A DNA stretch of 64,000 nt, from NCBI RefSeq assembly GCF_024519315.1, contig NZ_JANIIC010000003.1:124001-188000 (forward strand). The letters run 5' to 3'. Position numbers and translations under genes: made by a program. The notes under the pieces were generated by a model that did not search any database, was not told the origin of the DNA, and was given only the letters and a program-made list of their open reading frames with translations. Each line of letters opens with the position of its first letter. Position 1 is the first letter of the stretch. Shown in pieces: positions 28,500-55,189 of this stretch. The stretch is from Streptomyces malaysiensis subsp. samsunensis (GTDB lineage Bacteria; Actinomycetota; Actinomycetes; Streptomycetales; Streptomycetaceae).

Positions 28500-28635
28500 A
28501 CTCCGCCCGAGCGCTTCCCGGAGAACTTCACCGTCGATCCGAAACGCTACGAGCGGCGGTACAAGAACGGCTTCCGACAGCAGCGGACCCGGCGCAGATA
28601 CAGCTACTGCGCGCTGGAACACCTGAGGAGAAACC

Positions 28636-29451
28636 ATGACCACCACTGCCACGGGCTTCGAGATACGGCGGGCAGGTCCGCGGTTCGGCGCGGAGGTGAC
28701 CGGCATCGACCTGAGGACCGGCGTCGACGAGCGAACCGCCGAGGATCTGCGCCGGGCGTTCCGGGAGCACAAGGTGCTGGTGTTCCGCGGCCAGCACCTC
28801 ACACCGGATCAGCACGTCGAGGCCGTACGCGCCTTCGCGGAGCCCTTCGCCCACCCGACCGCGGTGAAGGACCCCGCCAATCCGCTGGTCTATCCGTACA
28901 ACGTCCAGCGGACCGGGAAGGCCAGCACCTGGCACATCGGCGGGCTGTGGCGGAACCCGGTCTTCGCCATCGAGTCGCTGACGTACGAGGTCGTGCCCGC
29001 GCTGGGCGGTCATACTCTGTGGGCCGATCTTCAGGCGGCGTACGACGACCTGTCCGAGCCCTTCAAGGAGCTGCTCGAATCGGTCAACGCGGTCTACGAC
29101 GCCAATGCGGAGAACTACGCACAGGGCAGCAGGCGACGCGGGGTCGAAGAGACCACCGAGCATCCGGTCGTTCTGAAACACCCCGAGACCGGCCGGAAGG
29201 GACTGTTCATCAGCACCTCGGCGCTCGGTCTGACAGGTGTCACGGCGCAGGAGGGAAGGGTGCTGCTCGACCATCTGCTCAGGCATGCCTCGTCGCCCGA
29301 CTACACGATCCGTTTCGGCTGGCAGGCCGGTGACTTCGTGCTCTGGGACAACAGGGCGACCTGGCACTACGCCGTGGACGACTACGGCGACGGCGCCCGC
29401 GTCTACCGCAAGGTCATCGGAGTGGAGCCGGTGCGCGGGCCCCGATCCTGA
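28636..29451 (+). CDS. TauD/TfdA-family Fe(II)/2-oxoglutarate enzyme with His-x-Gly facial site
   Basis: Protein of 271 residues that aligns along its length with taurine/alkylsulfate dioxygenases. Most of the active site is intact: proximal His100 in TWHIGG, Thr127 in GGHTLWA, distal His244 in NRATWHYA and Arg255 near GDGARVYRK for 2-oxoglutarate. The residue that should be the iron-binding Asp (His-x-Asp) is Gly102, read from CAC-ATC-GGC. In non-heme iron halogenases this Asp is Gly or Ala, and the vacancy holds a halide. By context the enzyme belongs to an organosulfur island, so the family name alone would suggest sulfonate desulfonation. Halogenation, or loss of activity, are the alternatives. 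AGGAG precedes the ATG. Confidence 0.85.
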   Translation: MTTTATGFEIRRAGPRFGAEVTGIDLRTGVDERTAEDLRRAFREHKVLVFRGQHLTPDQHVEAVRAFAEPFAHPTAVKDPANPLVYPYNVQRTGKASTWHIGGLWRNPVFAIESLTYEVVPALGGHTLWADLQAAYDDLSEPFKELLESVNAVYDANAENYAQGSRRRGVEETTEHPVVLKHPETGRKGLFISTSALGLTGVTAQEGRVLLDHLLRHASSPDYTIRFGWQAGDFVLWDNRATWHYAVDDYGDGARVYRKVIGVEPVRGPRS

Positions 29452-29607: not shown

Positions 29608-31299
29608 CTAGCCGGCACTCGCCCTGAGGAGCCCGCCGCCGTTTCGGCGGGCCTCGCGGCGCAGTGCGGCCTCTGCCGGGTCGAGTACGGGGACGGCCGC
29701 GAGCAGGGCCTTGGTGTAGGGGTTGTCGGGGGCGTCGTAGACCGTGTCCGCCGGGCCCTCCTCCACGACGGTGCCCTGGCGCATGACCGCCACCCGGTCG
29801 CTGGCCTGCCGCACCACCGCGAGGTCGTGGGCGATCAGCACCAGGGCGAGCCCGAGGTCGCGTTGGAGTTCTGCCAGGAGGGACAGGACCTGTGCCTGGG
29901 TGCTGACGTCGAGCGCGGAGACGGGCTCGTCGCACACGATGAGCTTCGGTCCGGGCGCGAGCGCACGGGCGATGCCGACGCGCTGGCGCTGACCACCGCT
30001 GAACTCATGCGGATAGCGGTGGTACCAGCGCGGGTCGAGTCCGACGCGCTCCAGGAGTTCCCGCGCTCGCCGGGTGATTTCCATGTCGGTGAGGTTCCCC
30101 GCCGCGCGCAGCGGGTCGGCGACGGACTCGCCGATGCCGCGGCGTGGGTTGAGCGAGGAGACCGGGTCCTGGAACACCATCTGAAGGTCGCTGTGGACAC
30201 CGGTCAGCTCGTGCCCCCGGTAGCGGACGGAGCCGCCACTGGGTTCCAGCAGGCGGACCAGCATCCGGCCCAGTGTGGTCTTGCCGCTGCCCGACTCGCC
30301 GACGATGCCGAGGGTCTCGCCTCGCGCCACGGTCAGCGACACACCGTCCACGGCGACCGTGCGGTCCTTCCTGCGCCCGAACTCCCGGCGCACCTCCGCC
30401 GCTTCCAGCAGGACATCGCCCGTGGACGCGGACGAGAGGGCGGACGCGGCGGCCATCGGCGCACGCCGGGCCTCCACCCGGGGCACGGCGGCCAGCAGTT
30501 CGCGGGTGTACGGCTGCCGCGGGAACTTCAGAACGGTGCCCACCGGACCCCGCTCCACGGCCCGCCCGCCCCTCATGACCAGCATGTCCTCCACACTGCT
30601 CGCCACCACGCCCAGGTCGTGGGAGACCAGGACCAGGCCCATGCCGGTCTCCGCGCGCAGGTCGTGGAGCAGGTCGAGGATCTGGGCCTGGACGGTCACG
30701 TCCAGGGCGGTGGTCGGCTCGTCGGCCACCAGCACCCGCGGCGCGCAGGCGAGCGCCATCGCGATCAGTGCGCGCTGCCGCATACCGCCGCTGAACTCGT
30801 GCGGCCGGGACCGGGAGCGGCGTGCCGCGTCGGGGATGCCGACCCGGTCCAGCACGGTGATCGCACGTTGCCGGGCGTCTCGCCGGGACACCTGCGGGGT
30901 GTGAATCCGGTGGACCTCGGCGATCTGGTCGCCGATGGGCAGGTAGGGGTCGAGGGAGGACAGCGGGTCCTGGAAGACCATGGCGGCGATGCCACCGCGC
31001 AGACGCCGCAGCTCCCGTACCGGCGCGGTCGCCACATCGATGCCGCCGACCCGTACGGTGCCGGTCAGATGTGCTCCGGTGCCGCGGTGCAGGCCCAGCA
31101 GCGCCGCGGCGACCGTGCTCTTCCCGGAGCCGGATTCCCCCACGATGCCGAGTGCCTGCCCGGCGGTGAGCCGGAAGGACAGGTCGTCGACCGCGCGGAC
31201 GGTCTCCTCGCCCATGGGGAAGTCGACCGTCAGTCCCCGGACCTCGACCAGGGGTTCGGCCGTCCCGGCCGCCGGATCCGTCGGCTGATGCGGTGTCAT
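29608..31299 (-). CDS. ABC transporter ATPase, fused double domain (DppD-DppF type)
   Basis: Cytoplasmic energy-coupling subunit of 563 residues containing two complete ATPase domains in one chain. Each has a Walker [12 protein letters not shown](T), a signature ([16 protein letters not shown] and [16 protein letters not shown]) and a Walker B ([12 protein letters not shown] and [12 protein letters not shown]). Both have the oligopeptide/dipeptide-nickel pattern, and the second ends with the typical oligopeptide C-terminal region. It completes the importer encoded by the three genes upstream. The start overlaps the permease stop by ATGA. Substrate is set by the binding protein. Confidence 0.93.
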
Positions 31300-32303
31300 G
31301 ACAGGACCACCCTTCGGTCGGCCAGGGCGTAGAGGACGTCCGCGACGGCGTTGGCGATGACCACGGCGGTCCCGATGACGAGCACCACACCGACGACGAC
31401 CGGCAGGTCCACGGAGCGGACGCTGTCGACGAGGAGCCGGCCCAGGCCCGGGAGGCCGAAGAGCTGCTCGGTGAGCATCGCGCCACCCATCACCTGCCCC
31501 AGGTCCAGCGCGCTCAGGGCGATCACCGGGGGCAGCGCCCCGCGCAGCGCGTGCCGGGTGACGAGGGCGCGTTCGCTCACTCCGTAGGCGCGGAAGGTGC
31601 GGATGTGGTCCTCCGCGAGGACCTCGAGGGTGGCGGAGCGGGTGAGCCGGGCGTACTTCGCGCTCTCGAAGAGGCCGAGGGTCAGCCAGGGCAGCAGCAT
31701 GTTCCAGGCCCACTGCTCGGGGTCCTGGGACAGCGGGACGTACGACGGGAACGGCAGCCACCGCAGATAGGCGCACACCGCCATGAGCAGCAACAGACCC
31801 AGGATGAAGACGGGGGTGCCGGTTCCGGCCAGGGTGAGGACGGTGAGCACGCGTTCGGTCACCCCGCCGCGGCGCAGCGCGGACAGCAGACCGGTGCCGA
31901 CACCCAGCGCAAGCCACACCACCAGCGCGCCGATGGCGAGCGAGGTGGTGGCCGGGAGCCCCGCCACGATCAACGCGGTGACCTGCTGGTCGTTCTGGTG
32001 GGACAGCCCCAGGCAGGGCGCGGCGCAGTGCTGGAGCGAGGTCCCCGTCGAGTAGTCGCGGCCCGCGAACACGCCCTGGAGGAAGTGCAGATACTGGGCG
32101 TACGCCGGTTCGTCGAGCCCCAGTTGGCCGCGCACCTGCGCCACCTGGGCCGGGTTGCAGCGTTCCCCGCAGGCGAGCTGGGCGGGGTCGCCGGGGACGA
32201 GGTAGAAGAGGGCGTACAGGACGACGGAGAGCACCAGCAGTACCGTCACGGCACCCACCAGGCGCTTCGCCGCGAAGCGCAGGCCCGTAAATCGTTCAGT
32301 CAC
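31296..32303 (-). CDS. ABC transporter permease (DppB type)
   Basis: Membrane subunit of 335 residues with six hydrophobic segments, the first at about 12-33 (VTVLLVLSVVLYALFYLVPGDP). The large loop after segment 1 contains four cysteines (LACGERCN and HCAAPCLG), which is unusual for this family and could form disulfides outside. The EAA-like coupling motif follows IRTFRAYGVSERALVTRHALR. The GTG start at 32303 overlaps the upstream permease stop by 8 bp. Confidence 0.9.
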   Translation of the reverse strand: MTERFTGLRFAAKRLVGAVTVLLVLSVVLYALFYLVPGDPAQLACGERCNPAQVAQVRGQLGLDEPAYAQYLHFLQGVFAGRDYSTGTSLQHCAAPCLGLSHQNDQQVTALIVAGLPATTSLAIGALVVWLALGVGTGLLSALRRGGVTERVLTVLTLAGTGTPVFILGLLLLMAVCAYLRWLPFPSYVPLSQDPEQWAWNMLLPWLTLGLFESAKYARLTRSATLEVLAEDHIRTFRAYGVSERALVTRHALRGALPPVIALSALDLGQVMGGAMLTEQLFGLPGLGRLLVDSVRSVDLPVVVGVVLVIGTAVVIANAVADVLYALADRRVVLS

Positions 32304-33285
32304 GGGTCTTCTCCTTGCGGGTGCCCACCCGCAGGCGGCTGGCCTCCCGCGGGTCGAGTGCGGTGCGCACCGCGTCGCCGAGCACGGTGAAGGCGAGGAC
32401 CGTGACGAACAGCAGCCCGGACGGCAGCAGAACGTACATCGGGTCGGCACGGAACCATGTGGTCGCCGTCGACAGCATCTGGCCCCATGCGGGCGTGGGC
32501 GGCTTCACGCCGATGCCGAGGAACGACAGCGACGCCTCCAGCACGATGTTGGACGGGAGGAGGATGGCGGCGTGGGTGATGACGGGCGCGGCGAGCGAGG
32601 GCAGCATCTCCCGCCGGACCACGCGCAGGGGGCCCGAGCCGCCGAGGCGGGCCGCGGCGACGAAGTCGAGGCGGCGCAGGGTCAGGGTCTGGGCCCGTAC
32701 CAGCCGGGAGGTACCGCCCCAGTTGAGGGCGCCCATGACCAGGATGAGCAGCAGCGGGCGCGGAAAGTCCTCGGGTACCACGGTGGTCAGCGCGATCGCC
32801 AGGACCAGCATCGGCAGCGCCACCATCACATCCGTGATCCGGCTGAGGACCTGGTCCGCCCATCTGTTGCCGAGCGCCGCGGCCAGGCCCACGCTCACCC
32901 CGATCAGCACCTGGAGCAGCAGCGCCCCCGCCGCCACGAGCAGCGACACCCGGGCGCCGTACACCAGCCGGGCGAAGAGGTCGCGGCCGGTGCCGGGTTC
33001 GACACCCAGCCAGTGGGTGCCGCTGATGCCGCCGAACGCGCCGTGCGGTGCGCCGCCGCTCGCGGAGTTCACCAGCTCGTCGTGGTAGGTGTACGGGTCC
33101 TGCCCGCTGACCGCCGTGAGCAGCGGCGCGGCGAGTGCGGCCAGGAGCAGCGCGGCGAGCACCGCGCCCGCGACGACGGCCGAGGGCCGGGTGCGCAGCC
33201 TGCGCCACACACCGCGGGCCCCGGCCGCCGGCCCCGGGGCGGGCGGATCGCCCGCCCCGGGTGCCAACACGTCCTGCACCGCCAT
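32296..33285 (-). CDS. ABC transporter permease (DppC type)
   Basis: Membrane subunit of 329 residues. A short cytoplasmic N-terminus is followed by segment 1 (VVAGAVLAALLLAALAAPLL), an extracellular loop with HWLGVEPGTGRDLFARLVYG, the DppC hallmark, and five further segments. The coupling motif lies around DFVAAARLGGSGPLRVVRRE and SLSFLGIGVKPPTPAWG is the conserved late loop. The ATG overlaps the binding-protein stop codon by one base (TAATG). It pairs with the DppB-type permease as the translocation pore. Confidence 0.92.
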   Translation of the reverse strand: MAVQDVLAPGAGDPPAPGPAAGARGVWRRLRTRPSAVVAGAVLAALLLAALAAPLLTAVSGQDPYTYHDELVNSASGGAPHGAFGGISGTHWLGVEPGTGRDLFARLVYGARVSLLVAAGALLLQVLIGVSVGLAAALGNRWADQVLSRITDVMVALPMLVLAIALTTVVPEDFPRPLLLILVMGALNWGGTSRLVRAQTLTLRRLDFVAAARLGGSGPLRVVRREMLPSLAAPVITHAAILLPSNIVLEASLSFLGIGVKPPTPAWGQMLSTATTWFRADPMYVLLPSGLLFVTVLAFTVLGDAVRTALDPREASRLRVGTRKEKTRD

Positions 33286-35012
33286 TACTTGACCGCCACC
33301 TGCGAGATGTCGAGGACGCCGGTCCAGTCGCTGATGACGACGTGTTGGATGTTCTTGCCGACCAGGCGCTGGTAGACCGGGTGGAAGAGCGGCACCGTGA
33401 GGGCCCGCTCACCGATCTTCTTGTCCAGGGCGCCCCAGCGCTCGGCCGCGGCGTCCAGGTCGGTGAGCCCACTGATCTCGTCGATCTCCTTGTTGACCGC
33501 GGGGTCGTCGAGCTGGGCGTGGTTGAAGTTGGCGCCGTCCTTGACGATCTGCCGTCCGTCGAAGATGGGGGCGAGGAACGGGTAGCCGGCGGGCCAGTCG
33601 GCGCCCCAGCGGCTCAGGAAGAACCCCGGGGTGTCGTCGGTGTCCCAGCGCTTCTCGTTGTAGGCGTTGGTCTCCAGGCCCTTGAGCTTCACCGTGATGC
33701 CGGCCTTGGCCAGGGACTGCTGGACGGCCGCGGCGACCTTGGGGCCCATCTCGCCCTCGGCGGTGGAGTGGGTGAGGGTCACGGTGAGGCCGTCCGGGTA
33801 ACCGGCCTTCCTCAGCTCCTCCTTGGCCTTCGCGGGGTTGCCGTTCCCGCCTGCCGGGAAGTGGTCGTAGGGCGTGTAGCCGAATGCCTTCTGGTTCGGC
33901 AGGAAGGTGGTGGCGGGCTCGGCGAGGGAGGAGCCGCCCACGGCGTTGATGACGCTGCTGCGGCCGATCGCGTACGAGATCGCCCGGCGTACCCCGGGCC
34001 GGTCGAACGGCTTCACCTTCGGGTTGAACGCCAGATAGTCGGTGTAGCCGAAGTGCCCGATCCCGACCCGTGACTTCAGGGCCTTGTCCTGGCCGATCTG
34101 GGCGAGTTCGGCGGGGCCGAGGTTGGTGTCCGTGGTGATGGCCGCGGTGTCGTCGCCCGAACTGGTCGACAGCCGCTGGTTGATGACCGCCGGGTCGAGC
34201 CCGGAGCGCACATCGATGGTGTCCGGGTATGCCTTGCGCTGGTCGTCGACCTTCTGGGACCAGTGCGTATTGCGCTTCAGCTGGAGCCGTTCACCGTCGT
34301 TGGTGTTCTTGACGACCTCGTACGGTCCGGAGGAGATGGGGTGTTTCTCGTAGGTGGTGCCGGTGTCCTTGTCCCGGGGCACGGGCGCGAACTGGGTCTG
34401 GGTCGCCAGGTAGGGGAAGTCGCCGACGGGTTTCTTCAGCTTGAAGACGATGGTCCGATCGTCCGGCGTCTCGATGGAGTCGAGCGTCTTCTTGCCCTTG
34501 CCGGACTTGTAGGGGCCCTGGTAGGTGTCGCCGCCTATCAGCCAGTCGCGCAGGTACGGGGCCCCGCCGGAGAGTTCGGCGGCGAAGGACCGCTCCACGC
34601 CGTACTTGATGTCGGCGGAGGTGATGGCGGAGCCGTCCTCGAACTTCAGCCCCTTCTTGAGTGTGTACGTCCACACCGTGGCGTTCTTGCTGGGGGTGCC
34701 GAGGCCCGTGGCGAGGTCGGGGACCACCTTCGTGCCGGCGGCACCGGCCGCCCGGTTGCGGGTGGTCAGCGTACGGAAGACCAGCGAGGGGATGTTGCCT
34801 CCGCCGGAGGTGTAGAGGCGGGCCGGGTCGAAGTCCGACTGGGCCTCGGAGTTGAGCACGGTGAGCTTGCCGCCCTTGGCCGCCTTCCCGTCGCCCCCTC
34901 CGGAACTCGCACCGCCGTCCTGCGGCCCGGAGCAGGCCGCGACCCCTCCGAGGAGGACCAGGCTGACGGCGGCCACGGCGGCGCGCTGGGCGAACGGTCT
35001 GGGTTCACGCAT
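33285..35012 (-). CDS. ABC transporter substrate-binding lipoprotein (SBP_bac_5)
   Basis: Lipid-anchored binding protein of 575 residues. The signal peptide ends in the lipobox GGVAAC-S, followed by a Ser/Gly-rich linker. The mature domain is family-5 (peptide/nickel/oligosaccharide type) with LKKGLKFEDGSAITSADIKYGVERS and SSGPYEVVKNTN. It delivers the ligand to the permease pair encoded downstream. In this sulfur context a small organosulfur compound, glutathione-like peptide or similar is plausible but not shown. The ATG at 35012 has no close ribosome binding site. Upstream lies a cysteine-leader-like ORF. Confidence 0.88.
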   Translation of the reverse strand: MREPRPFAQRAAVAAVSLVLLGGVAACSGPQDGGASSGGGDGKAAKGGKLTVLNSEAQSDFDPARLYTSGGGNIPSLVFRTLTTRNRAAGAAGTKVVPDLATGLGTPSKNATVWTYTLKKGLKFEDGSAITSADIKYGVERSFAAELSGGAPYLRDWLIGGDTYQGPYKSGKGKKTLDSIETPDDRTIVFKLKKPVGDFPYLATQTQFAPVPRDKDTGTTYEKHPISSGPYEVVKNTNDGERLQLKRNTHWSQKVDDQRKAYPDTIDVRSGLDPAVINQRLSTSSGDDTAAITTDTNLGPAELAQIGQDKALKSRVGIGHFGYTDYLAFNPKVKPFDRPGVRRAISYAIGRSSVINAVGGSSLAEPATTFLPNQKAFGYTPYDHFPAGGNGNPAKAKEELRKAGYPDGLTVTLTHSTAEGEMGPKVAAAVQQSLAKAGITVKLKGLETNAYNEKRWDTDDTPGFFLSRWGADWPAGYPFLAPIFDGRQIVKDGANFNHAQLDDPAVNKEIDEISGLTDLDAAAERWGALDKKIGERALTVPLFHPVYQRLVGKNIQHVVISDWTGVLDISQVAVK

Positions 35013-35181
35013 GGGGAATGGATGCCTTTCGGGGCGGAGGGCGCCGTCGGAAGGCAGCGGAAACAGCTGAGGAAGGGCGCTGAGCGCGCGAACCGCACCG
35101 ACGGGCGAGAGAAGTGTTGCGCCGGATCGGGCTCGGTGGGATGACGACGCGAGGCGGGCAGCGCCTCTTCGAGCCCGTGGC

Positions 35182-35274
35182 TCAGCGACAGTCGACGTCG
35201 GACACCGCGTGTGCGTGCACACCGATGAGCGCCAGGCGGAAGCCGGCGTGCACGGGGACGCGGTGACTCGACAT
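35182..35274 (-). CDS. Putative leader peptide ending in Cys-Arg (variant type)
   Basis: A 30-codon ORF, MSSHRVPVHAGF then RLALIGVHAHAVSDVDCR, ends TGT-CGC-TGA and lies 169 bp upstream of the binding-protein start. It shares the Cys-Arg-stop ending of the leaders at 55190 and 60120 but not their R-x-V-D-L-x-R motif, so it is a divergent member or a different class. There is no ribosome binding site; TACAGT 9 bp before the ATG and TTGTCT 15 bp further up suggest a leaderless start. If real, ribosome stalling at the Cys codon would control the importer operon. Confidence 0.5.
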   Translation of the reverse strand: MSSHRVPVHAGFRLALIGVHAHAVSDVDCR

Positions 35275-35322
35275 GGGGAGAAGACTGTACGAGCGTGTCG
35301 CGCGAGACAATAGCGTATCAGC

Positions 35323-35345
35323 ATCCGAGACGAATCGTCTCGGAT
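35323..35345. promoter_or_regulatory. Perfect 23-bp palindrome between divergent transport genes
   Basis: ATCCGAGACGA and TCGTCTCGGAT are identical inverted arms around a single A. The element sits in the 245-bp region between the leader/importer operon (leftward) and the binding-protein fusion gene (rightward), just upstream of the possible leftward -35. A symmetrical 11-bp half-site with a 1-nt centre points to a dimeric repressor rather than a terminator. The GntR protein encoded at 36610 is the nearest regulator. Confidence 0.7.
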
Positions 35346-35441
35346 TCCTGAGCAGGCCGACGACTCCGAGGGACGGGGATCCGGTCATACGGCTTGTTCT
35401 ATTGCAGGCGCGTGAACAAATCTTCCGCCCCTTGCATCCGA

Positions 35442-35455
35442 CTTCGCATGCGAAG
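35442..35455. promoter_or_regulatory. Perfect 14-bp palindrome upstream of the fusion gene
   Basis: CTTCGCATGCGAAG is fully self-complementary and lies 64 bp before the ATG at 35520. It may be the operator of the downstream GntR protein. Confidence 0.45.
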
Positions 35456-35519
35456 CAGTATCGGGAGCACTTCACGGGAGGAAAGCCCGGACGCATCGCA
35501 CCTGAGGAAGAAGAGCCCT

Positions 35520-37367: not shown

Positions 37368-38735
37368 TCAGCCGAATTCGGTGAGCCGCTGCGCGCGAGG
37401 GTCCGGCCGCTCGGCGGCGGCGCGGGCGTGCCGCGGCCATGGGAGCCCGAAGCGTTCGCGAAGTGTGCCGGTGGGATACTCCTTCCGGAAGAGTCCACGT
37501 GCCTGCAAGATCGGGACCACCAGGCGCGTGAAGTTCTCGAAGTCCACGGCGGAGTCGGCCGGCATGATGGTGAAGCCGTCGGCCGCGCCCCCGCGGAACC
37601 AGTCCTCGAGGTCGTCGGCGACCTGTGTCGCGGAGCCGACCAGGAGCCGATGGCCCGCTCCACCGGCCGACCGCTGGACGAGTTCCCGCGGTGTGCGGGG
37701 GCGCTCGGCGATCAGGGCGCGCGTCGAGAGGGTGAAGCCGACGGAGAACGCCCCCTCCGCAGGAGCGTCCGGGAGATCGTCGATCGTGATGGTGTCGTCG
37801 GGCCCGAACCTGTCCGCGGGCAGACCGAGACCGGTGACCACGGCCGCCGCGAGCCTCTCCAGCGGGAGCGTTCCATACAGCTCCCGCTCCCGTCGCCGGG
37901 CCTCGTCCTCGGTCTCGGCCACGAGGACGACCACGCCGAGTGAGACCTTGACATCATCCGGTCGCCGCCCGGCCGCCGTGGCGCGCCGGCGGATGTCATC
38001 GCGGAAGGCGACCGCCTTCGGCTGGGTCTGCGCCACGGTGAAGACGACATCGGCGAAGTCACCCGCGAGTCCCAGCCCGCCTTCCGAGCCTCCGGCCTGG
38101 ACGATCACGGGTCGTCCCTGGGGTCCGGCGGGTACGGGCAGTGGGCCGCGAACCGAGAAGAACTCGCCGCGGTGGTCGATGGGGCGGATCCGGCTCGGGT
38201 CGGCGTATCTGCCGTTCGTCTTGTCGCCGGTGACGGCTCCCGGCTCCCACGCGTCCCACAGCCGTGTCACCACATCGAGGAACTCATGGGCCCGGCGGTA
38301 TCGCGTGGGTTTGTCCGGGTGATCCTCCAGACCGAAGTTCGCCGCGGCCGCGGTGGTTCCGGTGGTCACGATGTTCACCGCGGCGCGTCCCTTGCTCACA
38401 TGATCCAGCGCGTTGAAGCGGCGCGCGAGGTTGTAGGGCGAGTTGTAGGTCGTCGAACTGGTGATGATGAATCCGATACGTTCGGTGTTCCCGGACAGAT
38501 GGGCCAGCAGGATCAGCGGGTCCAGTCCCGTGTCCGGTGCGTGCTCGATACCGGCTCCCAGAGCGGGACCGTCGCCGAGGAAGACCGCGTCGATCTTGGC
38601 GTCCTCGGCGGCCTTCGCGAGTCGGCTGAAGTGGTCGACGTCCAAGTAGGTCAGCGGATCGGCATGCGGCAGTCGCCACGCCTGGCGGAAGTGGCCAGGG
38701 GTCAGGAGTGAGAGGTTGAGGTGAAAGCCGGTCAC
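37368..38735 (-). CDS. FMN-dependent monooxygenase, NtaA/SnaA/DszA type
   Basis: Luciferase-like monooxygenase of 455 residues, last gene of the operon. Features are the N-terminal strand [56 protein letters not shown] (start of the FMN phosphate site), [16 protein letters not shown] and AADGFTIMP. Such enzymes use FMNH2 and O2, supplied by a separate reductase, to cleave C-N or C-S bonds. The GTG start overlaps the previous stop (GTGA). The long insert and C-terminus place it with NtaA/SnaA/DszA rather than with SsuD. The substrate is unknown. Confidence 0.9.
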
Positions 38736-39850
38736 GGCCGCGGGGCTCCCCTCCGGGGGATCGGTGGTTCGGACACGGTGGCGCACGGCTCCTGAAGCGG
38801 ATGCCATCCGAGCAGCGGTGCGACCTCCCGCGCGGTGGCGGTGAGCAGCCGGATGTGCTCGTCGAACCCCGGCACGCCGGGGACGAAGCTGACGAGCAGG
38901 TCGGTGGCTCCGGCGAGGGACGGGTCGGCGGCGAGGGATTCGGCGATCGCCCCGGCCGGCCCGAGCAGTGCCCGGTCGCGCTCGAGGTACTCCTCGACGC
39001 CGGCCTCGGTGTCAGCACGGCGCCTGGACGCCCATGACTGCCAGCGGCGTACACCGGGGGCGACAGCGCGGAGGGCACCGGCGCTGTCGGGGTGCGGATA
39101 GACCGCGCGCGAGACCTGGACACGCGGTTCGTACCCGGCTGCGGCCGCGGCTTCGCGATACGCGGCGACGACAGCCGCCTGCTGCTCGACGGTCTGCCGG
39201 CCGGTCCAGTCGCCGGCCCGGGAAAGCTGCAACCCGTCGCCGGCCCCGGCGGCCGCGATCGCCGCGTCGACGGCCCGCCCCGGGTCGCTCGTGGTCGCCT
39301 GCCACACCCGCTGCCGCACTCCGGTGCCCGGAGGGTGCAGCACCTCTCCGACGGTGTTCACCGGGTGGCCCTCCAGGACCTCATGGAGTTTCGCCACGTT
39401 CCGGTCGAAGAGGGTCCGCTTGTCATCGAGGCTGCGGCCGAACGCCTCCCAGGCCGTGGGGAACGGCCCCGAGCCGACGCCCAGTTCCACCCGCCCGCCG
39501 CTGAGCTCATCCAGCACGGCCGCGTCCTCGGCAACGGCCAGCGGGTCGGCGAGCGGCAGGACGAGCACACCGGTGCCGAGCCGGATGCGGGTGGTGTGCT
39601 CGGCGATCGCGGCCAGCAGGACCAGTGGGGCGGAGACATGCTCGTTGCCTTGGCGGAAGTGGCGGTGTATCACCCAGCCCGAGTCGTAGCCGAGTCGCTC
39701 GGCGGCGACGAACAGCTCGATGGCCTGTCGGTAGGCCGAGGCGGGGGCGAGGTCCGAGTCGAGGTGGAGCAGGAAGGCGAGCCGGAAGGGGCGGCCGTCC
39801 GCCACTCCGGCTCCGACCGCCCCGGTACGCTCGGAGGTCCCCTCAGACAC
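38732..39850 (-). CDS. LLM-class flavin-dependent oxidoreductase
   Basis: Luciferase-like protein of 372 residues. It has [11 protein letters not shown] at strand 1, [44 protein letters not shown] and [24 protein letters not shown], the usual F420/FMN luciferase pattern. An ATG at 39901 is in frame, but the GTG at 39850 gives the 8-bp overlap (GTGTCTGA) typical of this operon and is preferred. It is a different subfamily from the neighbouring NtaA-type protein, so the operon makes several distinct flavin monooxygenases. The substrate is unknown. Confidence 0.87.
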
Positions 39851-40880
39851 GGACGCCGGTCCCGTGGACGCCGTGCCGGTCGATGAGCGCGAGTTCCTCA
39901 TCGGTCAGCGGTGGGAAGTCCAGCGCTCGGGTGTTGTGGTCCAGCTGCCAGGTCGAGCTCGCGCCGATGAGCGCACTGGTCACCTGCGGCTGCCGCAGCA
40001 CCCATTGCAGCGCGAGCTGCGCCAGTGACTGTCCGCGCCGCTGGGCGATCTCATGGAGCGCCGTGGCTCGTTCGCGGTAGGTGTCGTCGATGTCGTCGGC
40101 CGACAGGAAGGCGCTGTTCCGGGCTCGGGCGCCCGGGGGGATCGCGCCGTCGAGGTACTTGTTGGTCAGCAGCCCCTGGGCCAGCGGGCTGTAGACGACG
40201 AGGCCGAAGCCGTCCTCGGCGGCCAGCTTGAGCAGACCGTTGATTTCCGGGCGACGATCGAAGATCGAGTACCGCGGCTGGTGCACCAGCAGCGGAACCC
40301 CTTCCTGGCGGAGCGACTCGGCCGCTTCATGGGCGCGCTCCGGGGTGTAGTTGGAGATTCCGGCGTAGAGCGCCTTGCCGGACCGGACCGCGGTGACCAG
40401 CGCGCCGACCGTCTCCTCCAGCGGGGTGGCGAGGTCGGGGCTGTGGCTGTAGAAGATGTCGACGTAGTCCGTGCCGAGGTCACACAGGCTGTGGTCGAGC
40501 GAGGTCAGCAGCGACTTGCGCGAGCCCCCCTTGTGGTAGGGGCTCGGGCCGATCGGGTTGCCGGCCTTGGTCGACAGGATCAGCTCGTCCCGGTGGGGTG
40601 CGAGGTCCTTCCTCAGCACCGTCCCGAAGAACTTCTCCGCGGCGCGGTGCGGCGGGCCGTAGCGGTTGGCGTTGTCGAAATGGGTGATTCCGAGGTCGAA
40701 GGCGTGCAGCACGATCTCGCGCTGGGTTTCGTAGGGGTAGTCGGTCCCGAACTTCTGCCAGAGGCCGAAGGAGAAGGCGGGCAGGTCGAGGCCCGAGTCA
40801 CCGGTACGGCGGTACTCCTGCTTCGTGTAGCGGTCGTCCGCCGCGTGGTGAGTGGTTTCGAAGGGTCCGAAGGCCGGCAT
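39843..40880 (-). CDS. Aldo/keto reductase (YghZ/Kv-beta-like)
   Basis: TIM-barrel NADPH oxidoreductase of 345 residues. The tetrad residues are in [12 protein letters not shown] (Asp, Tyr), ILSTKAGN (Lys) and IFYSHSPD (His). [14 protein letters not shown] and the C-terminal cofactor loop [12 protein letters not shown] are typical of this subgroup. In an operon of sulfur-compound monooxygenases it may reduce the aldehyde or ketone released by C-S cleavage, which is inference. ATG at 40880 has AAAGGA upstream; the gene follows the DszC-like gene by 61 bp. Confidence 0.92.
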
Positions 40881-40941
40881 GAACGGGTGTCCTTTCGTGG
40901 ACGTCGGAAGACTGGGTAGGGGTCGCGGGCCGGGTGTGGTT

Positions 40942-42165
40942 TCAGAAGAGCCCGGTGGTCGGTGGTTCCTCACCGGCCAGGTGGTAGGCGCCGACCACGG
41001 CTGCCTTCCAGTCCCGGGGATTGTGGTTGGCGACGGTCCGGGCGTTGCGCCAGTGCCGGTCGAAGGCGTACTCCCGGTCGGTCGCGGAGCCCCCGCCGAC
41101 GTCGAAGAGCAGTTCCCCCGCCTTGAGAGCCGACTCGATGGCGATGTACTGCGCCTGGGCGACGGCGATGGCCGCGGTCGCGCCGGCCGTGCGGACCTCG
41201 TCGTCCGGGGTGTGCCGGACCCGCTCCAGTGTCTCGGCCGCGAGGACGACGGAACCGCGGGCGGCGTGTGCGCGGGCCGCCATCTGACCGACGACATGCC
41301 GGACATACGGGTCGTCGATGGTTCTGCCCGCCGTGCTGTGCTTGATCGGGCGGGCCTTCTCCCGGCCGAACCAGACCGCGTCGTCGAGCGCCGCGGCGGC
41401 GATACCGGCCTGGATCGAGGCCAGGTAGAGCTGGGCGAATGATCCCAGCCACGGATTGCGCAGCTCGTTCCTGTCGATGCGGACGAGTTCGTCATCGGTG
41501 ACGCGGACGTCGGTCAGCCGGGTGGTTCCGCTGGCCGTGAGGCGCTGGCCGACGGCGTCGAAGTCGTCGAGCCGTTCGACGCCTTCCCGATCGGTGGGAA
41601 CGGTGAACTGGACGATGTCGCCGTTCTCGTCGACCGCGGTGCCGCCGAACCATGCGGCGTACAGGCCGCCGGTGCTGTAGTACTTGGTGCCGTTGAGCAC
41701 ATAGCCGGAGCCGTCACGGCGGAGAGTGGTGGCCACGGAGCCGCTCGCGCCGCCGGTTCGCTCATTGCCGGTGCCGGCGAAGAGGTCGCCGTGTCGCAGT
41801 CGCTCCAGTGAGCGCTCCCGGTGGGGCAGGTCACGGCGTACGGCGACGCGGTTGGCGATGAGAAAGCTCGACCGCAGTGCCTGGGCGACGCTGGAATCGG
41901 CCCGCGCGAGGTCGATGACCACCTCGGCGACATCGCGCGGTGTCCCGCCCGCGCCGCCGTCCTCGGAGGGAATACCGATCAGCAGCAACCGTGCCTCGGC
42001 CAGCGCGCGTACCTGCCCGAACGGGTGGTCCCGGGTATCTTCACGGCGGCGGGCGGTCGCGGCCAGCTCCGCGAGGACCGGCGCGATCGCGGCGCGGATG
42101 CCCGCCACGGTCGGCGGGGCGGCCGGGTCTGTGGCCCGGCCGGTGGCGTGGAGCGTCCAGGTCAT
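40942..42165 (-). CDS. DszC/SfnB-like acyl-CoA dehydrogenase-fold monooxygenase
   Basis: Protein of 407 residues with the acyl-CoA dehydrogenase fold, closest in pattern to the flavin-dependent monooxygenases DszC and SfnB. LLIGIPSEDGGAGGTP and SSVAQALRSSFLIAN lie in the N-terminal helical part, NGTKYYSTGGLYAAWFGG in the middle sheet, and HWRNARTVANHNPRDWK at the C-terminus is the group signature. The usual catalytic Glu of true acyl-CoA dehydrogenases is not evident. It would use reduced flavin and O2 on a sulfur compound. The start overlaps the upstream stop by ATGA. Confidence 0.87.
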   Translation of the reverse strand: MTWTLHATGRATDPAAPPTVAGIRAAIAPVLAELAATARRREDTRDHPFGQVRALAEARLLLIGIPSEDGGAGGTPRDVAEVVIDLARADSSVAQALRSSFLIANRVAVRRDLPHRERSLERLRHGDLFAGTGNERTGGASGSVATTLRRDGSGYVLNGTKYYSTGGLYAAWFGGTAVDENGDIVQFTVPTDREGVERLDDFDAVGQRLTASGTTRLTDVRVTDDELVRIDRNELRNPWLGSFAQLYLASIQAGIAAAALDDAVWFGREKARPIKHSTAGRTIDDPYVRHVVGQMAARAHAARGSVVLAAETLERVRHTPDDEVRTAGATAAIAVAQAQYIAIESALKAGELLFDVGGGSATDREYAFDRHWRNARTVANHNPRDWKAAVVGAYHLAGEEPPTTGLF

Positions 42166-43094: not shown

Positions 43095-43116
43095 GAGATG
43101 TTCCGGCCCTCCTGGC

Positions 43117-44361
43117 CTAGCGGGTGGCTCCGGGTGCGGCGGACACGTAGGACGGGCGCGGCGGACCGGGCGTCCCGAGGCCGAGGTGGCCGCGCAGTGT
43201 GGTGTCGTCGTACTCACGGCGGAAGAGACCGCGACGCCGCAACTCGGGAATCAGCTGGTCGGCGAAGTCGTCGAATCCGGACGGCAGCACATCGGGCATG
43301 ACGTTGAAGCCGTCGGCCGCACCCTGCCGGAACCACAGCTCGATGTCGTCGGCGACCTGCTCCGGAGTGCCGACCACGATCCGGTGGCCGCCACCGCCGC
43401 TCAGTTTGCGCAGCAGCCGGCCGAGCGTGGGATTCTCCTTGTCGATGATGGCTTTCACGACCCGGTAGAAGGTCTGCGAGCCACCGGCCCGGTCCGGCTC
43501 GACCAGCAGCTCGCGCGGGATGGGTTCGTCGTCCGACAGACCCTCCAGGGAGAAGCCGAGCTGGCCCGCGAGGCGCCGTCGCGCGTAGGCGTCGGGAAGG
43601 ATCTCGTCGAGCGTCTCGCGCCGCCTGCGGGCCTCTTCCTCGGTGCTGCCGAGTACGGTCGAGAGGCCGGGCAGGACGACGACGTCCTGGGGACGGCGTC
43701 CGAACTCCACCGCGCCGGCGCGGATCTCGTCACGGAACGACGTGGCGTCGTCGATGTCCTGGTCCGCGGAGAAGATCACTTCGCCGACGCGCGAAGCCAG
43801 GCGGCGTCCGTCGCTGGATCCACCGGCCTGCACGACAACGGGGCGCCCCTGCGGAGAGGCGAACGCCCGCCGGTCCGCCCACTGGGCGATGACCTGGTGG
43901 GTGAATTCCGCCGCCCGCCGGTACCGCTGCGCATGCTCGGGCTCGCCCGGCCGTCCGAAGTTGCGTGCGGCGGCGGCGCCTGCGGTGGTGACGACGTTCC
44001 ATCCGACCCGGCCACCGCTGAGGTGATCCAGGTCGCCCACCCGGCGGGCGAGTTCGATCGGATCGTTGTAGCTCGACGACAGCGTTCCTATCAGCCCGAT
44101 GCGCTCGGTCTGGGCGGCGATCCGCGCCAGCACGGTGGTCGGCTCCAGGTTGTTGCCGGGCCGGTGGCGGACGAGAGGCTCGAGGACCGGGCCGTCGGCG
44201 AGGAACACCGCGTCCAGCTTCGCCGCCTCCGCCTTCTTCGCGATCCTGGTGTAGTGCTCGATGGTGTAACTCGCCCGCCCGTCGGTCCCGGGGAACCGCC
44301 ACGAGCCGCCGAAGACACCGGCGTTGAGGATGTTGACGTTGATGTGCAGTTGGCGAGTCAC
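43117..44361 (-). CDS. FMN-dependent monooxygenase, NtaA/SnaA/DszA type
   Basis: Luciferase-like monooxygenase of 414 residues. Visible motifs are INVNILNAGVFGGSWRFPG, AVFLADGPVLEPL, SSSYNDPIELARRVGDLDHL, SGGRVGWNVVTTAG, SPQGRPVVVQAGGSSDGRRLA and GAADGFNVMPDVLPSG. It probably oxidises a small organosulfur or amine compound with FMNH2 and O2. The GTG start overlaps the stop of the DszC-like gene upstream (GTGA), which argues that the two are translated together and may act in sequence. Confidence 0.92.
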   Translation of the reverse strand: MTRQLHINVNILNAGVFGGSWRFPGTDGRASYTIEHYTRIAKKAEAAKLDAVFLADGPVLEPLVRHRPGNNLEPTTVLARIAAQTERIGLIGTLSSSYNDPIELARRVGDLDHLSGGRVGWNVVTTAGAAAARNFGRPGEPEHAQRYRRAAEFTHQVIAQWADRRAFASPQGRPVVVQAGGSSDGRRLASRVGEVIFSADQDIDDATSFRDEIRAGAVEFGRRPQDVVVLPGLSTVLGSTEEEARRRRETLDEILPDAYARRRLAGQLGFSLEGLSDDEPIPRELLVEPDRAGGSQTFYRVVKAIIDKENPTLGRLLRKLSGGGGHRIVVGTPEQVADDIELWFRQGAADGFNVMPDVLPSGFDDFADQLIPELRRRGLFRREYDDTTLRGHLGLGTPGPPRPSYVSAAPGATR

Positions 44362-45563
44362 TGTTGCCGACCTTCCTGGGACCGCCGGCCGCGGTCGTAC
44401 GACGACTGCGGGGCGACACCGTTGACGACGAACGCGCCGATGACCCTGGGCTTGTATATGACCGGGTTGTGCGAGGCGAGGGTGCGGGCGTTGCGCCAGT
44501 GCCGGTCGAGGTGGGCACTCTCCCGGACCGCTGACGAGCCGCCGGCGTTGAAGGCGATGGTCGCGGCGTCGAGAACGGCCTCGACGATGGCGATCTGCGC
44601 GGCCGACACATCGATGTAGTTGGCGGTGTACGCCTGCTGCGAACCGTCCCGGTCGGCCGTCTCAAGGCCCTCGGCGACCGTCCTGAGCAGGGAGTCCACC
44701 GTGAGGGCACGGGTGTGGAGGCGACCGACGACACCCAGCACCTCGGGGTCCTCGGCGGCCTGTTCGGACAGCGCGTGCAGGCTGGTGCGGGTGCGGGACC
44801 TCACCACGGCGACGGTCTCGTCGACCAGGCTGTGGGCGATACCGGCGAGGTTGGCCAGGTGTACGAGCTGCACGAAGGCCGGGAGGGAGCGCAGGTTCTC
44901 CTTGAACCGGCCCAGTTCCCCGTTCTCCTCGACGGGGACGCGGTCGAAGACGGTCGTACCGCTCCCGGTCAGACGCTGCCCGATTCCGTCCCAGTCCTCG
45001 GCGTGGGTAACGCCCGGATGCCGCGCGGGAACCACGGCGAACCAGCGGTTGCCGTCGTCGTCCGCGACCGCGACGCGGATGTAGTCGGCGAACAGCGAAC
45101 CGGTGGAGTAGAACTTGGTGCCGCTGACCACCTTGCGGCCGTCCACCTCATGAACGCGTGTCGAAATGCCGAAGTCCGGGCTGGTGCCCGCCGTCTCGGA
45201 CTGGGCGTTGCCGAACACGGCGCCCTCCGCGATCCTGCGGAGCCAGTGGTCGCCGATGTCGGGGTCGTCCGCGTGCCGCAGTATCTCCACCGCGGTGAAG
45301 TGGCCCCGCAGGATCTGCGGAATGTTGGAGTCGGCCTTCCCTGCCTCGGCCAGCAGTCGGAACAAGGTGGGCAGGTCGACGCCGAAGCCTCCCTGCGCGA
45401 TCGGCACGCGCAGACGGCCGAATCCGGCGTCGGCCAGTTCGCGTACGAACTCATGCGGGTGCTTACGGGACTGGTCGCGGACACCGGCCTCCGCTTCCAG
45501 CCGCTGGAAGATCCTGCGGAACTCGGCCACGGCCTCTTCGAGGGCGTGGGACGGGTCGCTCAT
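44358..45563 (-). CDS. DszC/SfnB-like acyl-CoA dehydrogenase-fold monooxygenase
   Basis: Protein of 401 residues, paralogous in type to the one at 40942-42165. It has FGRLRVPIAQGGFGVDLPTL, ADSNIPQILRGHFTAVE, FGNAQSETAGTSPDFGIST, SGTKFYSTGSLFADYIRV and the C-terminal HWRNARTLASHNPVIYK. It is expected to hydroxylate or oxygenate a sulfur substrate with reduced flavin, like SfnB or DszC, rather than act in fatty-acid oxidation. GGAG lies 5-8 nt before the ATG. It is the first enzyme gene after the transporter block of this operon. Confidence 0.88.
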   Translation of the reverse strand: MSDPSHALEEAVAEFRRIFQRLEAEAGVRDQSRKHPHEFVRELADAGFGRLRVPIAQGGFGVDLPTLFRLLAEAGKADSNIPQILRGHFTAVEILRHADDPDIGDHWLRRIAEGAVFGNAQSETAGTSPDFGISTRVHEVDGRKVVSGTKFYSTGSLFADYIRVAVADDDGNRWFAVVPARHPGVTHAEDWDGIGQRLTGSGTTVFDRVPVEENGELGRFKENLRSLPAFVQLVHLANLAGIAHSLVDETVAVVRSRTRTSLHALSEQAAEDPEVLGVVGRLHTRALTVDSLLRTVAEGLETADRDGSQQAYTANYIDVSAAQIAIVEAVLDAATIAFNAGGSSAVRESAHLDRHWRNARTLASHNPVIYKPRVIGAFVVNGVAPQSSYDRGRRSQEGRQQ

Positions 45564-45579
45564 GGGGCTCCTTCGTGGA

Positions 45580-47238: not shown

Positions 47239-48134
47239 CGTTTCTGCCTCTCTGCGAAATGGCGGGCGAGACGGTTGCCGGCCAGGACGACCGCGGCGAC
47301 GGTCAGCGCCGGATAGACCACCAGGTAGGGCTTGCTCGCCAAGAAGTTGCGGCCATCGGCGACCAGGCGGCCCCACTCCGGGCTCGGCGGCTGGGCGCCG
47401 AGCCCGAGAAAGCTCAGTGAGGCGATCCAGATGATCGAGATGCCGAACTGGATGGTGACCAGCGACAGCGTCGGCCCCAGTGAGTTGGGGACCACATGGC
47501 GCAGCAGGACCGTCGACGAACGGGCGCCGCTCGCGACCGCCGCTTCCACGTACTGGCTCGTCCTGGCGCGCAGCACCTCGGAGCGGATGAGCCGGGCGAA
47601 GGCCGCCGACGATGTGAGGCCGACCGCGGCCGCCGCCTGCAAGATCCCGTAACCGAGGACGACCACGATGGTGATGGCCAGCAGGAAACCCGGAATGGAC
47701 AGCACGACATCGATCAGTCGCATCACGACGGCGTCGATCCAGCGGCCGAACCAGCCGGCGAGGGCGCCGAAGACCGAGCCCACCGCGACACCGATGAGCA
47801 CGGCCACCACCGAGCCCGACAGTGACGCGCGGGCGCCGTGGACGACGCGGCTGTACTGATCGCGGCCGAGCCGGTCGGTGCCGAACCAGTGCGCGCTCGA
47901 CGGCGGCAGCAGCTTGTCCGTCGCCCCGATCGCCGTCGGGCTCGAATGGGCGAACCATCCGGGGACCAGCGCCCAGAGAACCGCCACCACGAGGACCGCT
48001 CCCGCCACCACGACCGACCAGTGACGGATAGACCACAGCAGTATCGCGATGGCACGGCCTCGCGACGTCTTCGCCGACCCTCCGGTATCCCGTGCTTCGA
48101 CCGAGGGCGCGGGGTTCTCGGCTGTCGTCGTCAT
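47235..48134 (-). CDS. ABC transporter permease (DppC type)
   Basis: Membrane subunit of 299 residues with six hydrophobic segments (first: VVVAGAVLVVAVLWALVPGW). The DppC hallmark HWFGTDRLGRDQYSRVVHGA follows the first segment, and SLSFLGLGAQPPSPEWGRLV is the conserved late loop after the coupling helix. The start has a strong GGAGGTGG upstream and overlaps the previous stop by ATGA. It forms the pore together with the DppB-type permease. Confidence 0.93.
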   Translation of the reverse strand: MTTTAENPAPSVEARDTGGSAKTSRGRAIAILLWSIRHWSVVVAGAVLVVAVLWALVPGWFAHSSPTAIGATDKLLPPSSAHWFGTDRLGRDQYSRVVHGARASLSGSVVAVLIGVAVGSVFGALAGWFGRWIDAVVMRLIDVVLSIPGFLLAITIVVVLGYGILQAAAAVGLTSSAAFARLIRSEVLRARTSQYVEAAVASGARSSTVLLRHVVPNSLGPTLSLVTIQFGISIIWIASLSFLGLGAQPPSPEWGRLVADGRNFLASKPYLVVYPALTVAAVVLAGNRLARHFAERQKR

Positions 48135-49174
48135 CGTGTGGCCACCTCCTCCGGGAGCCGGGGAGAGGTCGCTTCGTCCGGGCCGAGCCGGGCCGGTATG
48201 GCCCCCTTCTCCGAACCCTTGGTCTTCTTCGGGCGCGCGGCGAGGATGTCGGCCCGGATGCGCGGATCGATGAGCGGGTGGACCACGTCGACCACGAGGT
48301 TGACCAGGACGTAGCCCGTGGTGGCGACCAGCACCACGCCCTGGACGACGGGCAGGTCCTGAGTGTTGACGGCGTTGAGGGTGATCTGACCGATTCCGTT
48401 CCGTGCGAACACCGCTTCGGTGACGACCGAGCCCGCGATCAACTCGCCCACGGCCAGGCCCAGCATGGTGAGCACCGGCAAGGACGAGTTCCTCAGGACA
48501 CCACGTCCGAAGATGTACCGCTCCCCGGCCCCCCTCGCCTGGAGGACGTGTACGAAGGGCTGTCGCCGGGTCGCCGCGATCGAGGCACTGAACACCTGGG
48601 ACAGCGGTGCCGAGACCATGATCCCCAGGGTGACCGCGGGCCCCACCAAAGCCAGGAAGGTTCCGTCGTCGACCGCGGGGATCAGGTGCAGCTGGAACGA
48701 GAAGTAGTAGAGGATCAGGATTCCGATCACAAAGCTGGGCACCGAGGCGGCCAGGGCCGGGAAGGACTGGAGAAGAGTTCGCAGCCAGTTCCACCGCGCG
48801 TAGCTCCCGACGACTCCGACTCCGGCCGCGATGACCGCTCCGAAGACGAAACCGAGGGCGGTCAGCCGCAGAGTGCCGGGCAACGCGTCACCGAGCAGAT
48901 CCGCCACCTTCGCCCCGCTGCTCAGCGAGTACCCGAGGTTCCCGTGGAGCAGGGCGTCCAGCGCGCGGACGTACTGGACCACCACCGGATGGTCGAGGCC
49001 GTAGAACGCCTTGAGGAGCTTGCCGTCCTCCGGCGTCAGCTGGTTCTGCGGATTGTTGATCAAATTGGATATCGCGTTGCCGGGCAACGCGGTGAGCAGG
49101 ATGAAAGCCAGTGTGTAGGCCGCCCAGAGAACCAGGACGGTGTGCGCCAGGCGCTTGAGTACGTAGCGGGCCAT
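48131..49174 (-). CDS. ABC transporter permease (DppB type)
   Basis: Membrane subunit of 347 residues. It begins MARYVLKRLAHTVLVLWAAYTLAF-type with segment 1, then the loop LPGNAISNLINNPQNQL, and ends with segments around GELIAGSVVTEAVFARNGIGQ, the family pattern. The C-terminal ~40 residues are charged and cytoplasmic. The start is 3 nt after the binding-protein stop, with tight coupling in an operon. Confidence 0.92.
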   Translation of the reverse strand: MARYVLKRLAHTVLVLWAAYTLAFILLTALPGNAISNLINNPQNQLTPEDGKLLKAFYGLDHPVVVQYVRALDALLHGNLGYSLSSGAKVADLLGDALPGTLRLTALGFVFGAVIAAGVGVVGSYARWNWLRTLLQSFPALAASVPSFVIGILILYYFSFQLHLIPAVDDGTFLALVGPAVTLGIMVSAPLSQVFSASIAATRRQPFVHVLQARGAGERYIFGRGVLRNSSLPVLTMLGLAVGELIAGSVVTEAVFARNGIGQITLNAVNTQDLPVVQGVVLVATTGYVLVNLVVDVVHPLIDPRIRADILAARPKKTKGSEKGAIPARLGPDEATSPRLPEEVATR

Positions 49175-49177
49175 GGG

Positions 49178-50803: not shown

Positions 50804-51025
50804 AACAGCCGGATTTCCTTCCGAGGACATGGCGGTGATGGGCGTTGCCGGACAAGGGCGACGCGGAGGCCCATGGGGACATGAGACGGTGACGAGGCCG
50901 ATCACTACGAGCACGTCCGCGACGGGACGCATGCCATGCCGGCGGCAGGCAAGAGTGGACAGCACAGATCTCTTCGGCTGTGCCGTCGGATGAAAGGGGT
51001 GACCGGCCGGGCCGCGTCAGGGCCA

Positions 51026-51061
51026 AACCCGTATCTGAACCCGTATCTCGGCAAACGAGAT
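51026..51061 (-). repeat. Direct repeats and hairpin in the 5' leader RNA of the 11-gene operon
   Basis: AACCCGTATCT occurs twice (51026-51036 and 51038-51048, 12-bp period), and ATCTCG/CGAGAT (51045-51061) form a perfect 6-bp hairpin with a 5-nt loop. These lie downstream of the leader ORF in the transcript, so they are probably RNA elements of the attenuator rather than operators. Confidence 0.45.
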
Positions 51062-51066
51062 GGGTG

Positions 51067-51110
51067 AAAAAATTCAGAAGACTGATTCCTGGGGGCTCAA
51101 AGCGCCCAGG
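51067..51110 (-). promoter_or_regulatory. Candidate attenuator after the cysteine leader peptide
   Basis: Read on the minus strand just after the leader stop codon, CCTGGG pairs with CCCAGG (51088-51110). A small TCAG/CTGA hairpin follows (51074-51085), then a T6 run (51067-51072), the only U-tract of this kind I found in the window. A stalled leader ribosome would cover the first arm and change folding. Confidence 0.5.
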
Positions 51111-51113
51111 CCA

Positions 51114-51185: not shown

Positions 51186-51193
51186 GGGCAGAA

Positions 51194-53872: not shown

Positions 53873-53891
53873 GGTCGGTGGTCCCTCCGGC

Positions 53892-55112: not shown

Positions 55113-55189
55113 GAAGGGTGCCTCCCTGTTCAACCATGGGTGATCGGCCCCCCTCGACGGGAGGGCACGAGGTCTTCGAGGTGATCAGG

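Follow-up and report, generated by a model that had tools for sequence, protein, structure and literature searches.

Introduction

TauD is a model 2-oxoglutarate (2OG) enzyme. The Fe(II)/2OG radical halogenases belong to other protein lineages and to natural-product settings, and to our knowledge the characterised bacterial 2OG enzymes with an HxG/A site are halogenases. The hydroxylase SadA, engineered by an Asp-to-Gly exchange, reportedly acquired halogenase activity.

The iron triad of TauD and AtsK is His-x-Asp...His. AtsK and Rv3406 are Fe(II)/2OG alkylsulfatases (type II sulfatases) and are described with a His-x-Asp site (PMC3675115). Removal of the Asp was reported to abolish the activity of a prolyl hydroxylase (D414A/G) and of TauD (D101A; PMC2767507), as well as that of a plant flavonol synthase (D230G; PMC12346261). 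In a motif-based annotation pipeline HXG/A serves as the mark of a halogenase (PMC12871659). A 2OG iron site with two histidines and without a carboxylate is described for the human aspartate/asparagine beta-hydroxylase AspH, which hydroxylates with water in the vacant site (PMC13168262, PMC10947486) and, in the account given by PMC13168262, apparently does not halogenate its EGF-domain substrates. Since AspH is a two-histidine 2OG hydroxylase, a His-x-Gly motif alone is no proof of halogenation.

We analysed a 64,000-nucleotide stretch of DNA (the window) from a genome of 11.05 Mb (G000). It contains a TauD-family gene whose nearest named relatives are from Streptomyces and whose product has His-x-Gly at the iron site (the HxG protein). 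Among the matches listed in a search of titles and abstract openings of open-licence papers, no His-x-Gly protein of the TauD/AtsK type was reported. The novelty is an altered iron site within a known fold and a known setting.

The iron site of the HxG protein

The initial annotation had pointed to a His-x-Gly site and to retained residues for the distal iron ligand and for 2OG. The motif was confirmed by the codons and by the TauD alignment, and His244, Arg255 and Thr127 by the alignment with E. coli TauD. The features of the gene are as follows, with the TauD equivalents taken from that alignment.

28625..28630, + strand: GAGGAG, a likely ribosome-binding site just 5' of the ATG of the TauD gene, read from the sequence
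28636..29451, + strand: open reading frame of the HxG TauD-family protein, 271 aa, ATG start, Pfam TauD match
28930..28953, + strand: codons 99-106, WHIGGLWR, from alignment and codon reading
28933-28935, + strand: His100, equivalent to TauD H99
28939-28941, + strand: Gly102, equivalent to TauD D101, in place of the iron-ligand Asp
29014..29016, + strand: Thr127, equivalent to TauD Thr126
29365..29367, + strand: His244, equivalent to TauD His255, the distal iron ligand
29398..29400, + strand: Arg255, equivalent to TauD Arg266, which binds the 2OG carboxylate

Codons 99-106 read TGG CAC ATC GGC GGG CTG TGG CGG, and the GC content at the three codon positions of the open reading frame (0.69/0.47/0.87) resembles that of the neighbour genes. 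H100-I-G102 stands where TauD and AtsK have His-x-Asp, and the 2OG-binding Arg and Thr of this family are present as R255 and T127. By alignment, one of the three iron ligands is gone and the 2OG residues are retained. Because of the retained residues the protein is expected to bind iron and 2OG.

E. coli TauD is similar in its fold and in its co-substrate residues, but the window protein is without an equivalent of Asp101 and has K95/A96 for D94/N95 and K259 for R270. His70, which in TauD is on the sulfonate side, is retained as H73. Arg270, which binds the sulfonate in TauD, and Val102 are replaced by Lys259 and Gly103 in 29/29 clade members compared, so the substrate of the HxG enzyme may differ from that of TauD. 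By sequence as well as by fold, AtsK and Rv3406 rank among the nearest relatives of solved structure. They share the link to sulfur scavenging, and their distal His, 2OG Arg and Thr align with those of the window protein, which differs from them by its His-x-Gly and by a Lys that replaces their Arg near the C-terminus. The radical halogenases SyrB2, WelO5, BesD, AdaV and plant DAH have in common with it the His-x-Gly/Ala motif, the distal His and the 2OG Arg. AspH resembles the window protein in its two His and in the missing carboxylate ligand at the usual position, but it belongs to another domain family and its substrate is a protein. The aspartyl/asparaginyl hydroxylase domain was absent from the window protein (Pfam, E 0.001), and at the same threshold no Pfam family besides TauD (E 2.2e-52) was matched. 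The window genome has nine TauD-family matches; six were readable at the site, five of them with HTD, HID or HHE, and HxG occurred just in this gene.

Predicted fold

An AlphaFold2 model of the HxG protein (alignment A2, 47 rows) reached a mean pLDDT of 92.5 and a pTM of 0.90. When the model was compared with solved structures, the best match was TauD of P. putida (Z 33.0, rmsd 2.3, 255 residues), with further matches to E. coli TauD (Z 32.7, rmsd 2.0 over 255 residues), AAD-1 (Z 32.1) and AtsK (Z 31.4). The best solved matches by sequence were mycobacterial TauD/Rv3406-type proteins and AtsK. As modelled, the HxG protein is a member of the TauD fold. No entry titled halogenase was among the 50 structural matches listed, which speaks neither for nor against a kinship to halogenases.

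Conservation of the HxG site

In 295 genomes of the genus, nine intact copies including that of the window were found at 78-100% identity, below which the identity fell to 43%. G096 has a truncated piece with the same motif (L017), and a second copy in G161 is represented by a C-terminal piece. In the GTDB genome collection 79 loci were detected by a scan that required one of two exact peptides and kept 80/90 confirmed stretches, so that remoter HxG members may be missed. The motif WH[IV]GG[LVT]WR was present in the window and in 31/31 close relatives that cover the site (L040-L070; 64-90% identity). Among the other 47, more remote relatives, 46 were HxD and one (L111) was unreadable at that residue, and L074, a C-terminal fragment, does not include the site. 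The alignment of close relatives at the HxD position had been suggested with the initial annotation, and it showed that Gly is not confined to the window protein.

The HxG proteins come from Streptomyces, Amycolatopsis, Pseudonocardia, Rhodococcus/Rhodococcoides, Williamsia (a record marked unverified) and from MAGs. The motif pattern was found in 2/396 genomes of the phylum, the window genome and G056, but the pattern requires G or C in most of the third positions and overlooks members. Plasmid records with a match numbered 434, all below 60% identity.

In a tree of 78 rows, the 30 HxG rows were on one side of a single branch (100/100, stem length 2.54), which adjoins HxD proteins of Streptomyces and Actinoplanes (join 92/81). 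As the tree is unrooted, a single origin of HxG is the simplest reading, short of proof. AtsK and Rv3406 were not among the rows, and the nearness to both rests on the sequence and structure matches. The median pairwise dN/dS was 0.25 (range 0.06-0.47; 300 pairs, 25 clade members). Codon 102 was GGC, GGT or GGA across the 25 sequences compared, which shows that the Gly was maintained through synonymous change. Judged from these substitutions, the clade is under purifying selection, in agreement with the earlier proposal that the protein would be functional.

A sequencing error, a lone mutation or decay of the window copy was considered and excluded, since the open reading frame is intact and 31/31 relatives have the same motif. 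Truncated (G096, L017), fragmentary (L074, C-terminal) and frameshifted (L070) copies do exist, but the window copy is intact and the identical motif occurs in many genomes, and the chance that the window gene is erroneous or decaying is negligible. The copies in L017, L070 and L074 indicate an ongoing loss of the gene from some genomes.

The protein could also be a pseudoenzyme that gave up its oxygenase chemistry and serves the sulfur island in another role, as a sensor, a scaffold or a binding protein. The loss of the Asp killed three engineered oxygenases (PMC2767507, PMC12346261), as would fit this reading. Both His and the 2OG Arg and Thr are, however, invariant in the nine genus copies and in the readable rows of the wider alignment, and the dN/dS of 0.25 also speaks against it. 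We regard a pseudoenzyme as quite improbable, and a loss of dioxygenase activity, which had been offered as an alternative, is not favoured by the sequences.

Together with G102, the residues G103, W105, R106, E113, H126, Y154, W243, R258 and K259 were invariant in 29/29 members. Among 25 HxD rows, G103, W105, E113, H126, Y154 and K259 did not occur, whereas W243 occurred twice and R258 once. Since the Asp mutants were dead, yet SadA reportedly gained halogenation, these accompanying residues of the clade probably matter. One of them might supply the third iron ligand from elsewhere and rebuild the triad, with E113 and H126 as candidates, or a carboxylate, sulfinate or thiolate of the substrate might do so. 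E113 and H126 are absent in E. coli TauD as well as in the 25 HxD relatives, and they are candidates by conservation alone. Position 126 is adjacent to the Thr that binds 2OG and may face away from the iron, and the frameshifted member L070 has Ala there. A relocated or substrate-supplied ligand appears unlikely.

Sulfur-poor composition

Apart from the initial Met, the HxG protein of the window contains neither Cys nor Met. Cys was absent in 29/29 clade proteins and internal Met in 22/29. Cys and Met together amounted to 0.09 per 100 residues in the clade, against 1.65 for the 48 open reading frames called in the window and 2.15 for the 47 HxD relatives. Twenty HxD homologues of Streptomyces were equally poor (20/20 without Cys, 18/20 without Met), and the poverty therefore marks the whole sulfur-scavenging class and not the HxG site. 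The sulfur-acquisition enzymes of sulfur-starved Rhodococcus are reported to include proteins that contain few or no Cys and Met residues (PMC8557817), and a protein without Cys and with almost no Met is what is expected for sulfur starvation. Several of the flavin-enzyme genes at 37368-55133 of the window are also at 0-0.3 Cys and Met per 100 residues.

The neighbourhood in the window

The initial annotation had placed the gene in a sulfur island. This holds, as NtaA/DmoA-type, other luciferase-like and SfnB/DszC-like genes are nearby. The transporter and partner names, here and in the relatives, are mostly the best matches under curated cut-offs.

29608..31917, - strand: ABC transporter ATPases with two ABC domains of the oligopeptide/dipeptide type, convergent with the TauD gene
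31296..33285, - strand: two ABC permeases of the Opp/Dpp type
33285..35324, - strand: family-5 extracellular solute-binding protein
37368..38807, - strand: flavin monooxygenase of the NtaA/DmoA family (446 bits, cut-off 280; 0.21 Cys and Met per 100 aa)
38732..39901, - strand: luciferase-like monooxygenase nearest to TIGR04027, below the TIGR04027 cut-off
40942..42165, - strand: SfnB/DszC-like flavoprotein (291 bits, under the SfnB cut-off of 431)
43117..44361, - strand: flavin monooxygenase of the NtaA/DmoA family (393 bits)
44358..45563, - strand: second SfnB/DszC-like flavoprotein, without Cys or internal Met, below the cut-off
48131..50965, - strand: ABC permease and TIGR04028-like solute-binding protein, below the cut-off
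51369..55133, - strand: three luciferase-like monooxygenases, of the MsnO8 family, of the NtaA/DmoA family and NtaA/DmoA-like

In the 11 Mb genome, 5/11 NtaA/DmoA genes above the cut-off are on the 331 kb contig of the window (split hits joined). The NtaA/DmoA/SsuD-type enzymes are FMNH2-dependent monooxygenases and are genomic partners of the HxG protein in the same islands; as flavin enzymes they have an unrelated chemistry.

Three other genes of the window were recorded. Directly upstream of the TauD gene, at 27230-28429 (+), is a subtilase-family protease (Peptidase_S8 with an I9 propeptide) that is low in Cys and Met. At 35394-36566 (+), a single open reading frame reads as a PhnS-like solute-binding protein (SBP_bac_6) combined with a C-terminal thiamine-pyrophosphate enzyme domain, either as a chimera or by merged frames. 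At 57956-59206 (-) is a Cys/Met-poor relative of the vanadium-dependent haloperoxidases (match to PDB 4cit at E 5.5e-21, with PAP2 slightly short of the cut-off). In G161 a homologue of this protein (73%) is about 11 kb from the C-terminal fragment of the second HxG TauD copy. No homologue was found at E 1e-4 in the 33 clade loci, and matches were present in 4/8 whole genomes, close just in G161 (73%) and in the window's own. The haloperoxidase-like protein, 28 kb away from the TauD gene, had suggested a halogen link; on these counts it was dismissed as a general partner.

Neighbours of the HxG gene in relatives

Neighbours were counted by six-frame HMM searches, because the gene caller had missed the TauD gene in L044, L048, L062 and L070 and had merged some open reading frames. 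With a luciferase-family model, a luciferase-like monooxygenase was detected in the flanks of 26/31 clade loci and of 12/47 HxD loci; 26/31 is a generous figure, as the model was partly trained on L040, L042, L045 and L060. At 15/31 clade loci the luciferase-like gene was on the same strand and at most about 600 bp from the HxG TauD gene, the gaps being approximate, since they were measured between the start of a tblastn match and a nominal end of the gene. Five of the 31 loci gave no luciferase-like match within the flank examined. Stricter models made from the window proteins alone found the DmoA type in 21/33 clade loci (L040-L070 with L031 and L036) and any of the three types in 22/33, compared with 10/47 HxD loci, which are a rough control since they are from other taxa, often have shorter flanks and are in part sulfur genes themselves.

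The arrangement is tight at several loci. In L044 the frame of the monooxygenase overlaps the TauD start. In L055-L057 TauD is preceded by two genes of the DmoA type, the counterparts of the last two genes (NtaA/DmoA and NtaA/DmoA-like) at 51369..55133 of the window, together with one more luciferase-like gene, and 64 bp remain to the TauD match. The monooxygenase of L060 is directly 3' of the HxG TauD gene, and in L062 the gap is 3 bp. In L040, the closest relative (90%), the HxG TauD gene has beside it a binding protein of the NMT1 type and an SsuD-like gene, which scores 421 bits (cut-off 518). L065 from Rhodococcus combines an NtaA/DmoA enzyme with SsuA-like and TIGR04028-like proteins, and L052 has an amino-acid, cystine-like ABC transporter as a partner, where the window has the Opp type.

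The partner genes thus vary between the clade subgroups. SfnB-like genes, which are prominent in the window, were found in 0/33 clade loci and do not generally accompany the HxG TauD gene. Since the transport partners vary but the flavin monooxygenases recur, the common factor looks like the use of organosulfur and not one compound, and the genomic context looks like sulfur scavenging.

A selection of neighbour genes was scanned (transporters, flavin monooxygenases, SfnB-like genes and similar), and no polyketide or peptide synthetase was among them. This bears on the question of whether the HxG protein is a true radical halogenase on a TauD fold, in which chloride or bromide would replace the Asp and the ferryl would halogenate carbon. 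Such an enzyme might perhaps form a labile alpha-chloro thioether or sulfate ester next to the sulfur, or act on a small molecule that has nothing to do with the sulfur genes. The His-x-Gly with intact distal His, 2OG Arg and Thr is the halogenase arrangement as given in PMC12871659, and Gly102-Gly103 is invariant in 31 relatives. The invariance of W105, R106, E113, H126, Y154, W243, R258 and K259 in 29/29 members would fit a bare Asp-to-Gly exchange being insufficient. The scanned neighbours and the Cys/Met-free composition indicate sulfur scavenging instead, the Pfam match is to the TauD family alone, and AspH with a similar site is described as apparently non-halogenating (PMC13168262). We consider a halogenase rather unlikely. 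The undescribed halogenase of a freestanding small molecule that the initial annotation had proposed is not supported so far, as the protein has the TauD fold and as its neighbours and near-zero Cys/Met content point to sulfur scavenging under starvation.

Proposed role

We see about an even chance that the HxG protein is an active oxygenase of sulfur starvation whose iron site lacks a carboxylate and which oxidises its substrate to release sulfur. Within the TauD family it would stand for an actinobacterial branch in the vicinity of the alkylsulfatases AtsK and Rv3406. The iron would be held by two protein side chains alone, His100 and His244, and 2OG by Arg255/Thr127. A small external ligand, for which water or hydroxide is the most likely candidate, would occupy the coordination site vacated by the Asp (Gly102). 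The carbon next to the sulfur would be oxidised and the sulfur released, and the enzyme would act beside the FMNH2-dependent C-S monooxygenases.

We infer the activity, the substrate and hydroxylation rather than halogenation. The HxG kept in 31/31 relatives, the one branch and the dN/dS of 0.25 count for an active enzyme. The neighbours, the Cys/Met poverty, the TauD/AtsK fold and the kept H73 count for a sulfur-starvation oxygenase. On the other side are K259/G103, the dead Asp mutants, the HxG/A halogenases and SadA, together with the variable neighbours, the 5/31 loci without a luciferase-like match and the SfnB-like genes in 0/33 loci.

A tentative possibility is that a halide or the substrate ligates the iron and that the protein is a radical halogenase or a carboxylate-free ferryl enzyme of the TauD fold in sulfur scavenging, which would functionalise the carbon next to the sulfur so that the C-S or C-O-S bond collapses. 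If true, this would be a natural Asp-to-Gly switch within the best-studied 2OG family that serves nutrient acquisition and not natural-product making; no such case was found in the titles and abstract openings of open-licence papers among the matches listed.

The HxG clade is a natural Asp-less TauD branch that is maintained in several Actinomycetota genera, while three Asp-less mutants are reported as dead (PMC2767507, PMC12346261). A comparison of the HxG with the HxD relatives would reveal the further changes that make a two-histidine site work. It would also tell whether the open site stands for halogenation, as HXG/A is read by the pipeline of PMC12871659, or for an AspH-like oxygenation. 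The clade cautions against calling all His-x-Gly proteins halogenases.

Further genes at the HxG loci

In L047, L049 and L058 the start of a gene for an MFS transporter coincides with the HxG TauD stop, and the homologue in L044 is also MFS, DHA2-like. An export of the desulfurised product by this transporter is possible. At L066:10004-13593, the HxG TauD gene forms a tight row with genes for an alpha/beta hydrolase-like protein, a DUF427 protein and an oxygenase from a different 2OG-Fe(II) family. Relatives of this DUF427 protein are also present in L044, L061, L064 and L065.
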